Below are positions 27,650 to 34,272 of a DNA stretch of 35,352 nt, in pieces. The number at the start of each line of letters is the position of its first letter. The stretch's first letter is position 1. Location of the stretch: positions 1 through 35,352 of the forward strand of contig JAFGAO010000143.1 of assembly GCA_016933615.1 (NCBI GenBank), written 5' to 3'. The position numbers were made by a program, and so were the translations under genes. This DNA is from Acidobacteriota bacterium (GTDB taxonomy: Bacteria > Acidobacteriota > UBA6911). Under the pieces are notes generated by a model. That model had not been told where the DNA came from, did not search any database, and saw only the letters and a list, made by a program, of their open reading frames with translations.

Positions 27650-29773
27650 ATGGGAGACGTGAAAAAAGTGCGGACCCACTGCCGCTGCTGCCACGGCGCC
27701 TGCGGCGTCTTTGCATACGTGAAGGACGGAAAGGTGATCAAGGTGGAGGGGAATCCCGACGACCCCATAAGCCGCGGCAGCATGTGCAGCAAGGGCCTGG
27801 CCGTGACGCAGCTGGCCTACCACCCCGACCGGATCCTTTATCCCATGAAGAGGACCGGACCGAAGCCGAGCGGAAACTGGGAACGCATCACCTGGGACGA
27901 GGCGCTCGACACCGTGGCGGACAGGTTTCAGGCCGTCGTCGACCGGCACGGGCCGGAATACATCGTCGTCGGGCAGGGAACGGGCCGGGACTACGAAAGC
28001 CATATGTACCGCTTCGCCAATCTCCTGGGAACGCCGAACGTATTGACGGCCGGCCACATGTGCTACGTGTCGAGAGTCTCCACGAGTCTTGCCACCTGCG
28101 GGAACCTCCCGGTCGTCGATTATTTTGTCGGCGAACCCAAACTGATCGTGATGTGGGCGAGCAACCCCATGTGGACCAACGCGGACGAATACAAGGGCGA
28201 AAACTTTTACCGGGCCTACAAAAACGGGGCCAAACTGATCAGCATCGATCCCCGGAATTCCTTCTACGGAGGCAAGGCCGACATCTGGCTGCAGATCCGG
28301 CCGGGCACCGACTGCGCCATGGCCCTGGGCTGGCACAACGTGATCATAGAGGAGGAGCTTTACGACAGGGATTTCGTGGAAAACCACGTCCACGGCTGGG
28401 ACGCATTCAAAGACAGGGTCATGAAGGACTACCCCCTCGACAAGGTCGAGAAAATCACGTGGGTGGACAGGGAAAAGATCCGTGCGGCGGCAAGGCTTTA
28501 CGCCGCAACGAAGCCGGCGGCGATCCACTGGGGCGTGCCCACCGAGCAGAACAACAACTGCACGGATTTCACCCGGACCGCGATCGGCCTGATGGGAATC
28601 ACGGGCAACCTGGACGCCCCCGGCGGGAACGCCCTGTTCGTCAATCCCCCCGTGCGCACCGTGGCGGAATTCTCCTGCCACAAAAGCCTTTCAAAAGAGG
28701 TGCAGCAGAAGAGGCTGGGAGGCATGGAGTTTTTCCTCGGCGCCAGGGTGCAGTTCATCAATCCCAAGAAGGCCTGGGATTCCATCGTTTACGGAACGCC
28801 CTACCAGCTCAAAGCCGGGCTTCTGTGCGGCACCAACCCGGTCGTGTCCCGCGCCAACGCCAAGCAGGCCTATCGCGCGCTGCAGATGCTGGACTTCCTG
28901 GTCGTCATCGACCACTTCATGACTCCGACCGCCGAACTGGCCGATATATTCCTGCCGGCCGGGACCTGGCTGGAGCAGAACTACGTCGCGGACAACTGGA
29001 AACGCCACGGCTACGTGTTCGCGCGGCAGAAATGCGTCGAGATCGGCGAAGCCTGGCAGGACCACAAGATCTTCCTGGAACTCGGAAAGCGCATGGGGCA
29101 GCAATGGTTCCCCACCGTCGAAGATTCCCTGGACTACATCCTGGAGCCGTCGGGGCTCGACTGGGCGCAGTTCAAGGAGGCGGATTACCTGCACGGCGAA
29201 ATGGTCTATTACAAATACAGGGAAAGAGGCTTTTCCACGCCGACCGGGAAGCTGGAGCTCTGGTCGACCCTTATCGAAAAGTGGGGGCGCGATCCTCTGC
29301 CCCAATACCGGGAGATTCCCGAAAGCCCCGTATCCACGCCGCAGGTAGCCAAAAAGTACCCGTACATTTTCAACTCGGGGCTCCGGACCCCGACGTTTTT
29401 CCACACGGAAATGCGCATGATTCCGTGGCTGAGGGAGATCCGGCCGCACCCCATCTGCGAGATCCACCCCGAAACCGCGGCCAGGCACGGCATCACCGAC
29501 GGGCAGTGGATCTGGATCGAATCCCCGAGAGGGCGCATCAGGCAGAAAGCGAAGATTACCGATTCCCTGCTCCCCGACGTGATCGCGGCCGAACACGGGT
29601 GGTGGTACCCGGAGATGAAGGATCCGGGGCACGGCTGGGAGATATCCAACTCCAACGTCATCACCGACAACGCGTTCGAAACCTGCGACGCCAACATGGG
29701 CGCAACCAACCTCAGGGTATGCCTGTGCAGCATCTCGCCCTGCGACGAGGAATGGGAGGGGGCCAATGGCTAA
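27650..29773 (+). CDS. Molybdopterin oxidoreductase, acetylene-hydratase-like branch of the DMSO reductase family
   Basis: 707 residues, catalytic subunit with a bis-pterin Mo or W cofactor. N-terminal 4Fe-4S ligands are C11, C14, C18 and C46 (followed by SKG). Cys138 in AGHMCYVSR is the likely metal ligand. The block GRDYESHMYRFANLLGTPN before it is typical of acetylene-hydratase-like proteins. In true acetylene hydratase the residue right after the second cluster cysteine is the catalytic Asp; here it is His15, which argues against hydratase chemistry. No twin-arginine signal, so it is cytoplasmic. AAGGAG lies about 8 bases before ATG 27650; the 10 extra upstream codons are not family-like. 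It overlaps the next gene by 8 bases, tying it to that flavin/iron-sulfur protein. The substrate is unknown. Confidence 0.9.
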   Translation: MGDVKKVRTHCRCCHGACGVFAYVKDGKVIKVEGNPDDPISRGSMCSKGLAVTQLAYHPDRILYPMKRTGPKPSGNWERITWDEALDTVADRFQAVVDRHGPEYIVVGQGTGRDYESHMYRFANLLGTPNVLTAGHMCYVSRVSTSLATCGNLPVVDYFVGEPKLIVMWASNPMWTNADEYKGENFYRAYKNGAKLISIDPRNSFYGGKADIWLQIRPGTDCAMALGWHNVIIEEELYDRDFVENHVHGWDAFKDRVMKDYPLDKVEKITWVDREKIRAAARLYAATKPAAIHWGVPTEQNNNCTDFTRTAIGLMGITGNLDAPGGNALFVNPPVRTVAEFSCHKSLSKEVQQKRLGGMEFFLGARVQFINPKKAWDSIVYGTPYQLKAGLLCGTNPVVSRANAKQAYRALQMLDFLVVIDHFMTPTAELADIFLPAGTWLEQNYVADNWKRHGYVFARQKCVEIGEAWQDHKIFLELGKRMGQQWFPTVEDSLDYILEPSGLDWAQFKEADYLHGEMVYYKYRERGFSTPTGKLELWSTLIEKWGRDPLPQYREIPESPVSTPQVAKKYPYIFNSGLRTPTFFHTEMRMIPWLREIRPHPICEIHPETAARHGITDGQWIWIESPRGRIRQKAKITDSLLPDVIAAEHGWWYPEMKDPGHGWEISNSNVITDNAFETCDANMGATNLRVCLCSISPCDEEWEGANG

Positions 29774-31682
29774 AGTGTCTTTGATATTCAGCCAGAAGGA
29801 TTGCTGCGGGTGCCACACCTGCGAGATTGCATGCAAGCAGGAGCACGGTCTTCCGGTCGGCCCCAGGCTCGTGAGGGTCCTGGAGAGGGCGCCGCTGTTC
29901 ATGCAGTACTACTGCCACCACTGCGGGGATGCGCCCTGCGCCCTGGCCTGCCCGGAAGAAGCCATTACAAAGGACCCGGACACGGGCGTTGTGCTCCTCG
30001 ATCCCGGAAAATGCACCGGATGCAGTGCCGTGGAGGGCCGCTCCGGCCGCGAGAAACAGCAGACCTCCCCTTGCAAATTCAACTGCCCGGCGGGCAACGA
30101 CATCCAGGGATTTATCGGGCTCACCGCCGGGGGAAAATTCACGGAAGCCTTGCGGCTCCTGAAGGAAACCAGCCCCTTCCCTTCCGTCTGCGGCCGGGTA
30201 TGCACCTTCCCCTGCGAATCCGACTGCAACCGGAAGCAGATCGACGATCCCGTTTCCATCCGGGCCATAGAGCGTTTCCTGGCGGACCGGAACCGGGCAG
30301 GCGGGGACGCCTATGTCCCGAAGCTTCAGCCTGCAAGAGAAGGGAAAGTCGCCATTGTCGGATCCGGCCCCGCCGGGCTGGCGGCTGCATACTTCCTGGC
30401 GAAAAACGGCTACAAGGCGACCGTCTTTGAAAAACTTCCCGTTGCCGGCGGCATGATGGCCGTGGGCATCCCGCTGTACCGTCTCCCCAGGGAGGCCCTG
30501 GCGGCGGACATCGGGGTGATCGGGAAGATGGGCGTGGAAATCAAAACAGGCGTGGCTTTCGGCAGCGACGTGACGTTCGAGAGCCTGAAAAAAGAGGGAT
30601 ACGGGGCCTTCTTCCTGGCTACGGGCCTCCACAAAAACGTTCCGCTGGATATACCCAACCCGAACCTGAAGGGAATATTGAACGGAATCGATTTTCTCCG
30701 GGACACCGCACTGGGCAATCCCGTCGCGCTCGGCAGGACCGTGCTTGTCGTCGGCGGCGGAAACGTGGCCATGGATGTGGCCATGACCGCGATCCGCAGG
30801 GGAGCCGGGGATGTCGCCATCGTCTACCGGCGCGCGCAGGCGGAAATGCCGGCATGGAAGCGGGAGGTGAACGAAGCCGTCGAGGAAGGGATCCGGATCG
30901 TCACCGGCCTGGCCCCGAAACAATTCCTCGGTAAAGACGGCCGGCTGGCAGGAGTCGAATTCAAAAGGAGCCAATCCGTTCGCAATGAAGATGGCGTCGT
31001 GGAACTCCGCTTCGACGAAGCGGATCTCACACGCATGGAAGCCGACACGGTCATTATCGCCGCCGGTCAGGCGGCCGATGTCCCGCTTGCCGAGAGCCAG
31101 GGGATCCCGGTCGATGTGGAGGGGCGGTTTATTGCGGACCCCGTCAGCCTGAAAACGCCGCTCCAGGGAGTGTTCGCCGGCGGCGACGCCTTATACGGCC
31201 CGAGGACCGTTGTGGAGGCGATCGGCTCCGGCAAGGCGGCCGCGGTCTCCATAGACCGCTACTTCAGGGGGCTCGATCTGCTCACGGGCCGAGAGGCCCG
31301 GGACGCCGGGCTGACTCCCATTACGGAACCGGTGAAGGACAAATACGACCCCGCGCCGCGCATGGAAAGCGCCTGGCTGCCGGTCGGGGAGCGCATGGGT
31401 TCCGACGAGGTCCAGCTCGGATTCAGCGAACAGGAAGCCCTAGAGGAGGCGAAACGATGCATCACATGCGGCGCCGCCTGCGTGCAGGCCTGCCCCTACG
31501 GCGTCATGCAGTTCAACCACGAGACGCTCAAGGCCGTCAAATGCGACCTTTGCCTCGATAAGCGGAAACGTGGGGAAGCGCCCGCCTGCACCTGGTCCTG
31601 TCCGGCCCACTGCGTCTACTGGGGCGATGCGTCCGAATTCCCCGCCGGGATTAATGACGGCCTGCAGCGCATCGTCCCTTAA
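29766..31682 (+). CDS. GltD/NfnB-like flavin oxidoreductase nested inside a DmsB-like iron-sulfur subunit
   Basis: 638 residues. Residues 1-86 begin a DmsB-type ferredoxin: C13/C16/C19/C23, C50/C53/C58/C62, then C83-x2-C86. At that point a complete GltD-type module intervenes (about 95-505). It comprises an N-terminal cysteine set C103, C107, C142, C146, C150, C154 with CGRVCTFPCESDCNR; FAD motif VGSGPAGLAAAYFLAKNGY at 198-216; NAD(P)H motif VVGGGNVAMDVAM at 328-340 with YRR at 354-356, suggesting NADPH; and FAD-binding AGGDA near 471. The DmsB part then resumes at 565-620 with C565/C568/C572/C576 and C593/C596/C608/C612, ending CPAHCVYWGD. It should wire NAD(P)H and FAD to the molybdopterin subunit, whose gene overlaps it. 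GGGAGGGGG precedes the ATG. No signal peptide; cytoplasmic. Confidence 0.9.
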   Translation: MAKVSLIFSQKDCCGCHTCEIACKQEHGLPVGPRLVRVLERAPLFMQYYCHHCGDAPCALACPEEAITKDPDTGVVLLDPGKCTGCSAVEGRSGREKQQTSPCKFNCPAGNDIQGFIGLTAGGKFTEALRLLKETSPFPSVCGRVCTFPCESDCNRKQIDDPVSIRAIERFLADRNRAGGDAYVPKLQPAREGKVAIVGSGPAGLAAAYFLAKNGYKATVFEKLPVAGGMMAVGIPLYRLPREALAADIGVIGKMGVEIKTGVAFGSDVTFESLKKEGYGAFFLATGLHKNVPLDIPNPNLKGILNGIDFLRDTALGNPVALGRTVLVVGGGNVAMDVAMTAIRRGAGDVAIVYRRAQAEMPAWKREVNEAVEEGIRIVTGLAPKQFLGKDGRLAGVEFKRSQSVRNEDGVVELRFDEADLTRMEADTVIIAAGQAADVPLAESQGIPVDVEGRFIADPVSLKTPLQGVFAGGDALYGPRTVVEAIGSGKAAAVSIDRYFRGLDLLTGREARDAGLTPITEPVKDKYDPAPRMESAWLPVGERMGSDEVQLGFSEQEALEEAKRCITCGAACVQACPYGVMQFNHETLKAVKCDLCLDKRKRGEAPACTWSCPAHCVYWGDASEFPAGINDGLQRIVP

Positions 31683-31865
31683 GCAGGATTTGCAGCAGCG
31701 CGGTTTGCGGATGTTTTGAAGCGTGCGAGCTTCCGGCTTCGCTTCTGCTACGCCGGACAGGTGCTTGCGCCATAAACCTTTAATATCCAGACACTTTGCG
31801 GGCAGCTTGCCGCCGCACTCCCCATAGCAATTTCGTTGAATGGCTATATGCGTAGTCAGCATCCA

Positions 31866-32285
31866 ATGTCAGAACAAAGTCACGATCCCAAAACAAATGA
31901 AAATGTGGCTGCGGCCGAGGAAACGCCTACCTGGACAGATCCCCAGACGAAGCTGGAATGGCAGTTCCGCTCCCCGGGGGAAATGACCTGGCACGACGCC
32001 CTTGAATATGCGCGCTCGCTTCGACTCAATGGAAAGGGCGACTGGCGCCTGCCGACGGCGCCCGAACTGGAGACGCTGCTCGACCGGAAAATCCTGCTGG
32101 AAAGCATGCGTCCGGCTATGAGAATGGACGTCCCTTTCCGCGACACCCTCAGCTACTGGTCCTCTACGACGTTTGCGCCCGACACCCGAAGCGCCTGGAT
32201 CGTCATGTTCGACGGTGCCTACATCCTGAGCTACTATAAAACGAGCAGATACCGCATCCGCTGCGTCCGCGGCTCCTTGGGATAG
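31866..32285 (+). CDS. DUF1566 (Lcl C-terminal-like) domain protein
   Basis: About 139 residues, nearly all one DUF1566 domain: TWTDPQTKLEWQF, then MTWHDALEYARSLRLNGKGD, WRLPTAPELETLL, YWSSTTFAPDTRSAWIVMFD and IRCVRGS at the end. The domain is common in exported or surface proteins of Desulfobacterota and others, with unknown function. This copy lacks a signal peptide. Three ATGs are in frame (31836, 31848, 31866) and none has a clear ribosome-binding site; 31866 is an arbitrary middle choice. It stands alone after the oxidoreductase operon. Confidence 0.8.
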   Translation: MSEQSHDPKTNENVAAAEETPTWTDPQTKLEWQFRSPGEMTWHDALEYARSLRLNGKGDWRLPTAPELETLLDRKILLESMRPAMRMDVPFRDTLSYWSSTTFAPDTRSAWIVMFDGAYILSYYKTSRYRIRCVRGSLG

Positions 32286-32396
32286 CGTGGTCGGGCCACG
32301 ATAAAGTCCTGGTCCATTTATGGAAACCTTCAGGATTATCGAGAGCCGGATTGTCCCCACCACGAAGGCTTTTTTGAATTGCTTTTTGGCGCACCC

Positions 32397-32494
32397 GGCC
32401 CGACTTTGACAACTGGGACGGCAATTCAAGAAAGATTGAATTGGGCGCGGCTACAAGTCATTATCCCCCCCCTCCCAGTTGCCAAAGTCGGGCT
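32397..32494. repeat. Large inverted repeat with a nested inner hairpin
   Basis: Arms at 32397-32418 and 32473-32494 are reverse complements at 20 of 22 positions (core CCCGACTTTG/CAACTGGGA). The 54-base interior includes CAATTC and GAATTG around ten bases. No ORF is present. It resembles a small non-autonomous element or a structured RNA. Confidence 0.6.
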
Positions 32495-32552
32495 GGATTC
32501 GGAGCGGGTTCGACCGGTTCGGCTAAGGTCATAAATCTATCAGCGCTTGTAT

Positions 32553-32586
32553 TATCGCACAATATATTATGGATTTTCGTGCGATA
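32553..32586. promoter_or_regulatory. Palindromic operator candidate of the Phd-Uma2 gene
   Basis: TATCGCAC (32553-32560) and GTGCGATA (32579-32586) are exact reverse complements 18 bases apart. Between them lie -10-like TATATT/TATTAT at 32563-32570. Phd-type antitoxins usually bind palindromes over their own promoter, so autoregulation by the N-terminal domain is plausible. Confidence 0.5.
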
Positions 32587-32631
32587 TTCAGGCAATATTT
32601 CGTTCATGGCGGCAATGACGGAGGTGGAACC

Positions 32632-33423
32632 ATGGCATCAAGCGCTTATCGGGAAGGACTCGTGATCAGCGCGACCGAGCTGAAGCAGAATCTCGGGAAG
32701 TACCTGGACGTAGTGGAACAACAGAACGACGTAGTGATTACCAAGAACGGCGGCAAAATCGCCAGGCTGACTCCATATGTGACGGATATCGAACAGTATT
32801 TCCTGGTGAGGGAAAGGGCGCTGGATTACCAGTACGGCGGCAAGAAAGTGTCCTATGAAGAATTCATGCAGATATACGAGAAAAGCACCCTGCGCATGGA
32901 GTTCATTAACGGAGAAATCCATCTGTTGGCTTCGCCCGCTCTCCGGCATCAGGAGATCCTCGGCAGGCTGCACCTGATCTTCCACGGGTATTTTCAGAGC
33001 AAGTCATGCCGGGTGTACTTCGCTCCGTTCGACGTGCATTTCCGCAAGCGGGAGATCAAGGAGCCTGATGTCATGCAGCCGGATTTGATGGTGGCATGCG
33101 ATCTGGAGAATAACGTCACGGAAAAGGGACGCTACATGGGCACCCCCTCCCTGGTCCTCGAGATCCTTTCGGACGGCACGCGAAGCAAGGATATGATCGA
33201 CAAGCTGAATACTTACAGGCTGTCCGGGGTGCAGGAGTACTGGATCGTCGATCCGAGGCAGGAGAATATCATAATCTACAGCTTCGAGGATTGTGAGATC
33301 GGCAAATATAAGACCTTCGAAGCGGGGGCCGCGGCCCAATCGATACTCTTCGCCGGTTTGACGGTGGAGGTTTCCGATTTGTTCCATGAACTGGTGGTGC
33401 AAACCGTACCGGCGTCCGACTGA
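32632..33423 (+). CDS. Phd/YefM antitoxin domain fused to a Uma2-family (DUF820) PD-(D/E)XK nuclease
   Basis: 263 residues. Residues 10-50 are a Phd/YefM antitoxin domain (ISATELKQNLGKYLDVVEQQ, then DVVITKNGGKIARLTP). Residues about 70-250 are a Uma2 nuclease-fold domain: YEEFMQIYEKSTLRMEFING, then EIHLLASPALRHQEILGRL, EPDVMQPDLMVACD, PSLVLEILSDGTRSKDMIDK and the closing VQEYWIVDPRQENIIIY. D in PDLMV and E-x-L in LEILS are the expected catalytic residues, and both are present. ATG 32632 has GGAGG 7 bases upstream; the longer frame from 32569 runs through the operator palindrome. No separate toxin or antitoxin gene is adjacent. The fusion suggests a nuclease with its own DNA-binding or regulatory domain. 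Function in vivo is unknown. Confidence 0.88.
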   Translation: MASSAYREGLVISATELKQNLGKYLDVVEQQNDVVITKNGGKIARLTPYVTDIEQYFLVRERALDYQYGGKKVSYEEFMQIYEKSTLRMEFINGEIHLLASPALRHQEILGRLHLIFHGYFQSKSCRVYFAPFDVHFRKREIKEPDVMQPDLMVACDLENNVTEKGRYMGTPSLVLEILSDGTRSKDMIDKLNTYRLSGVQEYWIVDPRQENIIIYSFEDCEIGKYKTFEAGAAAQSILFAGLTVEVSDLFHELVVQTVPASD

Positions 33424-33480: not shown

Positions 33481-34272
33481 TCAAATGGATCGCGTCTCCA
33501 AGGCGGACACCATTTCCAGGCGCCGGACCAGCCGCGCCAGTGAATTCTCAAAGGGGATTTGAGTCTGAACATCCACGGCCGCGGAGAGGATTGCGGGGCG
33601 GGTAGCCCGCCCTGCAGAGGCGAAATACAGAATATTGTCCGATTTCAGTCCGGGCAGCTGCCAGACCGGGCCCACGGACCCTTCGATCATCTTCAGCAGG
33701 GTGTCGCGTTTTCGCCTGTCCCCGCTCAGCCAGTTCACTGCCAGCACGCCGTCGTCGAGCAGGCATTTCCTGGCATCCATGATGAATTCCCGCGTCGCAC
33801 ACTGATCCGGGAACTGTTCCCCGAGATAGGTGTCGACCATGACGATCGCATACCGCGAAGTGCAGCGCCCGAGGAACGCGACGGCGTCTTGCAGGCGAAT
33901 ACGGCACCGCGGCAGGGCGTGAATGTCGAAATATTTTTCGGCCAGTTCCACGATTGCCGGGTCGATTTCGACCGCTTCCACTTCCATATGCGGGCTGGCT
34001 TTGAGAAGCATGCGCGGGACGGAGCCCCCGCCGAGCCCCAGGACGAGGCAGGATCGCGCTTTTGGGCAGAATGCCAGCGCCGCCAGCATATTGCGCGCAT
34101 ATTCCAGACCGGGCAGATGCGGAGCGTTCATGTCGAAAACGGTATGCCGGATCCCGGCCGAGGACCAGAGCGTGATTACCGCTCCCTTTCTTGTGACGAT
34201 CAGGTCTTCGGCAAGCCCCCGTATCCGGCAAAGAGTTTTGCTGTTGTTTCGAGCTTGTTTCAATGATCCCAT
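33481..34272 (-). CDS. Spermidine-synthase-like SAM-dependent methyltransferase-fold protein
   Basis: 263 residues with a class I SAM-binding core: LVLGLGGGSVPRML at 77-89, VEAVEIDPAIVELA at 98-111, LQDAVAFL at 127-134 and YAIVMVDTYLGEQFP at 141-155. This is the polyamine aminopropyltransferase (SpeE-like) superfamily pattern, but the usual DxxDPxGP catalytic stretch is replaced by DTYLGEQFPDQC, so spermidine synthesis is doubtful. It may be a different transferase. No membrane segment. ATG 34272 lacks a good ribosome-binding site. The gene is convergent with the Phd-Uma2 gene and divergent from the TraB/GumN gene. Confidence 0.85.
   Translation of the reverse strand: MGSLKQARNNSKTLCRIRGLAEDLIVTRKGAVITLWSSAGIRHTVFDMNAPHLPGLEYARNMLAALAFCPKARSCLVLGLGGGSVPRMLLKASPHMEVEAVEIDPAIVELAEKYFDIHALPRCRIRLQDAVAFLGRCTSRYAIVMVDTYLGEQFPDQCATREFIMDARKCLLDDGVLAVNWLSGDRRKRDTLLKMIEGSVGPVWQLPGLKSDNILYFASAGRATRPAILSAAVDVQTQIPFENSLARLVRRLEMVSALETRSI

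Follow-up and report, generated by a model that had tools for sequence, protein, structure and literature searches.

The window is a 35,352-nucleotide stretch of Acidobacteriota DNA, analysed at its full length (contig JAFGAO010000143.1, assembly GCA_016933615.1). On its plus strand, an open reading frame at 32632..33423 encodes a protein of 263 residues that joins a Phd/YefM antitoxin-type domain to a Uma2 nuclease-like domain. A sequence-only reading of this DNA had the frame and coordinates right, as well as the single ribosome-binding site: GGAGG (32620..32624, plus strand), read directly in the sequence, precedes the ATG at 32632. Both domains exceed their Pfam gathering cut-offs. The Phd/YefM DNA-binding domain (residues 11-49, 32662..32778) matches PhdYeFM_antitox (PF02604) at 32.4 bits against a cut-off of 29.8, and NCBIfam phd_fam also scores above cut-off at the N-terminus. 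The Uma2 PD-(D/E)XK nuclease-like domain (residues 76-243, 32857..33360) matches PF05685 at 95.7 bits (cut-off 27). Between them lies a linker (residues 50-72, 32779..32847), recognised from AlphaFold2 secondary structure, conservation and low dN/dS, which includes a third helix at residues 53-62.

The gene is flanked by an Lcl_C-domain gene on its upstream side (31836-32285, plus strand) and by a spermidine-synthase-like gene on its downstream side (33481-34272, minus strand). According to Pfam neither neighbour is a phd or toxin gene, which bears out the claim that no separate toxin gene is present. A two-gene type II toxin-antitoxin system consists of separate antitoxin and toxin genes; this locus holds a single gene. 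The genome contains one other Uma2 gene, unfused, and two further Phd domains elsewhere. Contamination of the contig was rejected, as the third-position G+C of the gene (0.74) fits that of its neighbours (0.70-0.84). Positions 29766-31682 of the window encode a long protein with ferredoxin domains on either side of a pyridine-nucleotide oxidoreductase core, adjoined by a molybdopterin oxidoreductase gene.

The fusion protein

The catalytic-type motif of the Uma2 part reads P150-D151...E177-I178-L179, with K191 in addition. These PD...ExL residues had been called intact from the sequence, and their loss across homologues had been named as a finding that would count against the proposal. An alignment of 73 homologues shows no such loss: Q149, D151, E177 and K191 do not vary at all, and conservation is at least 90% at P150 and L179. 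Over the gene, dN/dS lies between 0.06 and 0.24 in 16 pairs, and each of the three parts, Phd, linker and Uma2, has a low value. To judge by its sequence, the fusion gene is still functional.

The AlphaFold2 model (mean pLDDT 83) predicts the whole β-α-α-β-β-α order of Phd at the N-terminus, with the third helix at 53-62, and then Uma2. The earlier description of a full Phd domain thus holds for the predicted fold and not for the sequence match, which spans only positions 3-42 of the 74 in the profile, that is, the DNA-binding half. Foldseek matches the N-terminus to operator-bound P1 Phd, to YefM and to the N-terminal domain of VapB46, and the Uma2 part to 6okh, 9y1l, 3ot2 and 1wdj. Helix 53-62 and the conserved linker stand where the neutralising segment of Phd would be expected; the profile match stops at residue 49, and the model is of low confidence in the linker at residues 59-69. 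Linker residues 53-72 are as conserved as the Phd domain (mean major-residue frequency 0.82). The PADLOC candidate model PDC-S03 matches residues 71-252 at 3.9e-52 and is the sole link of the fusion to defence.

Distribution and mobility

About 125 distinct Phd-Uma2 fusions were gathered, nearly all from Bacillota, so that the fusion is no one-off peculiar to the genome of the window. Within the genus, one relative shares 83% identity across the full length. The species-genome scan, biased to fusions because its query peptides include the Phd part, returned 80 loci; among these and neighbouring loci, 76 open reading frames match over the full length, again nearly all from Bacillota. An even sample of 299 genomes from the phylum of Candidatus Formimonas warabiya (Bacillota), which is less subject to this bias, gave a match in 147 genomes and 79 full-length fusions in 40 of them (rows counted by hand). 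Thirty of these fusions show 57-78% identity and the other 49 show 37-49%.

The tree unites the two Acidobacteriota sequences in a single clade (100/100) that lies among sequences from Bacillota, and the fork containing them is placed at 85/90. This nesting suggests a horizontal transfer of the gene into this Acidobacteriota lineage. The flanks of the two Acidobacteriota genes share no DNA, and similarity is confined to the gene itself (84%). Between relatives with 80-97% DNA identity at different loci, the similar stretch usually runs from about 40-65 bp ahead of the start codon to near the stop, so that the gene seems to travel with its operator. Fusion genes are scattered among unrelated flanks, and in another member of the genus the two downstream neighbours of the window gene stand together without it.

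An all-against-all comparison of flanking open reading frames found no conserved partner gene, only occasional Uma2 paralogues, antisense shadow frames and common families at scattered positions. A restriction-modification system was rejected: the adjoining methyltransferase-fold gene is spermidine-synthase-like, its same-genus relatives have no fusion beside them, and a conserved partner is lacking. Plasmid or phage addiction was rejected as well, since no full-length Phd-Uma2 was found on the plasmid and phage records searched and the viral contigs gave Phd-only matches.

Predicted operators and alternative DNA-binding domains

Two putative operator palindromes precede the gene, TCGCACAA at 32555..32562 and TCGTGCGA at 32577..32584, the second starting 22 bp after the first. 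Both follow from the family motif, which the first fits in relaxed form only. The paired pattern, relaxed accordingly, has no second occurrence in the 3.6 Mb genome with up to one mismatch, and a regulon was rejected on this ground. Since 22 bp correspond to two DNA turns, bound dimers would sit on one face of the DNA. A sigma-70 promoter scan of the plus strand upstream of the gene gave no passing candidate. Just upstream of the operator lies a 32-nt inverted repeat (84%; 32390-32421 and 32470-32501) that folds with z = -4.55; it was rejected as a dispersed mobile element, being single-copy in the genome and matching no Rfam family over threshold.

Across the main clade, upstream regions contain 170 half-sites TCGTAC/TCGCAC, against a mean of 16.7 and a maximum of 26 in shuffled sequences. 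Of the 85 main-clade genes, 75 are preceded by the palindrome TCG[CT][AG]CGA with at most one mismatch, compared with a mean of 10.7 and a maximum of 18 in shuffles; 40 genes have a pair 21-22 bp apart, an arrangement that did not occur in 100 shuffles. The 10 genes with no site within one mismatch may partly reflect start codons assigned by a simple ribosome-binding-site rule. Because related sequences are not independent, the counts for either clade exaggerate how many separate events they represent. In the diverged clade (37-49% identity), 37 of 40 genes carry the palindrome TTAGCTAA instead. The TCGTACGA form of one clade and the TTAGCTAA form of the other rarely cross: the motif of the other clade precedes just 5 of the 85 main-clade genes and 2 of the 40 diverged ones. 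Operator and Phd type thus appear to change together, which is what a cognate operator would predict. When nine Bacillota genomes were scanned, every exact pair turned up immediately before one of the Uma2 fusion genes of the collection; one-mismatch pairs elsewhere are about as numerous as in a reversed control. A built-in DNA-binding and autoregulatory domain, as proposed in the sequence-only reading, is well supported by these clade-specific palindromes and by the uniqueness of the window pair.

Two diverged fusions (loci L138 and L140) lack TTAGCTAA upstream and have ATATTGATTAA-like repeats, which may represent a third type of operator. Tandem pairs of Phd-Uma2 genes are found at L036:6001-7637 and L077:5977-7502; the second copy in L036 has the other main-clade operator form.

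The Uma2 family is very abundant, and most solo Uma2 genes lack these palindromes. In the same genomes, an HTH_17 (excisionase/MerR-like) domain takes the place of Phd in several Uma2 genes, some of them adjacent. Examples on the plus strand are L038:6773-7546, L116:1243-2019 and L119:1174-2037, and others are found in L085, L091, L115, L120 and L142; some have TTAGTTGATT-like sequences in their upstream regions. HTH_17-Uma2 is a second, independent DNA-binding fusion. The feature in common is a DNA-binding domain before Uma2 rather than an antitoxin as such, and the Phd module may therefore serve DNA binding rather than neutralisation. A search beside solo Uma2 genes for separate phd-uma2 operons yielded just a fragment in L091 and one very weak hit in L018, and such operons were rejected.

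Interpretation and relation to known systems

With an antitoxin-type DNA-binding domain, an intact-looking nuclease domain and paired sites in the promoter, the gene gives the impression of encoding a nuclease that represses its own expression. Phd-Uma2 is probably a horizontally spread, one-gene, autorepressed nuclease in which Phd would be a built-in operator-binding module. Dimers of the Phd domain would bind the two palindromes in the promoter and repress the gene, as Phd does in phd-doc modules. Such autorepression would keep a potentially harmful Uma2 PD-(D/E)XK nuclease scarce, and its relief would allow the nuclease to act as a stress or defence effector. The reading draws on comparative evidence, namely the architecture, the intact catalytic residues, purifying selection, clade-specific operators, uniqueness of the site and horizontal spread; we infer repression, nuclease activity, substrate, trigger and benefit to the host. 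Toxicity, neutralisation in cis and phage defence are plausible, as is the one-protein toxin-antitoxin or defence unit that the sequence-only reading suggested.

A true one-protein toxin-antitoxin, in which the Uma2 toxin is held inactive in cis by Phd together with the linker helix until proteolysis or another trigger frees it, would resemble EzeT, and we consider it unlikely. The order of antitoxin then toxin is that of a fused phd operon, the third helix lies at the start of the neutralising tail of Phd within a linker that is conserved to the same degree as Phd, and fused antitoxin-toxin proteins are documented: EzeT, whose toxin is quenched in cis (PMC4826407), and listed YefM-YoeB fusions (PMC11980606). 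However, part of this linker is modelled with low confidence, the same genomes hold many solo Uma2 genes for which no Phd partner can be recognised, and the plasmid records searched lack the full-length fusion. Moreover, the replacement of Phd by the unrelated HTH_17 in sister genes weakens the case for a neutralising role of Phd.

It is very unlikely that the protein is a transcription regulator whose catalytically silent Uma2 domain serves dimerisation or sensing. The strongest evidence does concern DNA binding, but the catalytic positions are invariant and every other promoter of the genome lacks the paired site. Phd might instead aim the nuclease at or near its palindromes, making the protein a site-specific endonuclease of a selfish or homing-like element; scattered genes with unrelated flanks, homology ending near gene boundaries and intact catalytic residues would fit. 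The paired site nevertheless lies in the gene's own promoter and is unique in the genome, so that such an enzyme would cut its own host. A homing enzyme usually destroys its own site on insertion, whereas here the predicted site travels with the gene. This reading is very unlikely as well.

Tentatively, Phd-Uma2 might belong to a widespread class of single-gene self-repressing nucleases. Solo Uma2 would have repeatedly captured DNA-binding domains (Phd, HTH_17), each with its own operator, and antitoxin-type domains would be autoregulators rather than neutralisers. Literature searches found no description of Phd-Uma2, its operators or HTH_17-Uma2, which architecture databases may list; the family is apparently undescribed. 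Fused antitoxin-effector proteins are already known as a kind, and the operator evidence for Phd-Uma2 is new. With its predicted operator, Phd-Uma2 offers a concrete handle, having promoter, binding site and catalytic residues in one short gene, and it sets the DNA-binding role of an antitoxin domain apart from its neutralising role.

Phd-Uma2 shares with the Phd/YefM modules phd-doc and yefM-yoeB the Phd fold and, by prediction, palindromic operators at its own promoter. The Phd-Doc of E. coli (P1) likewise engages two adjacent palindromes (PMC13034048). Phd-Uma2 differs from these modules in being one polypeptide and in having Uma2, not Doc or YoeB, as partner domain. With other Uma2 (DUF820, COG4636) proteins, proposed to be likely solo toxins rarely linked with antitoxins (Makarova et al. 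2009, PMC2701414), it has in common the nuclease-like domain, the invariant acidic residues and the fold of the matched structures; typical Uma2 genes lack a DNA-binding domain and operator of their own, whereas Phd-Uma2 has the former and, as predicted, the latter. PDC-S03, which is no more than a candidate model, resembles it in the Uma2 part but extends to no other domain. EzeT, YefM-YoeB, CapRel and HicA-HicB Slr1999 also combine antitoxin-type and effector domains in one chain; Phd-Uma2 is distinguished from them by its effector domain and by forming a large conserved family with putative clade-specific operators.
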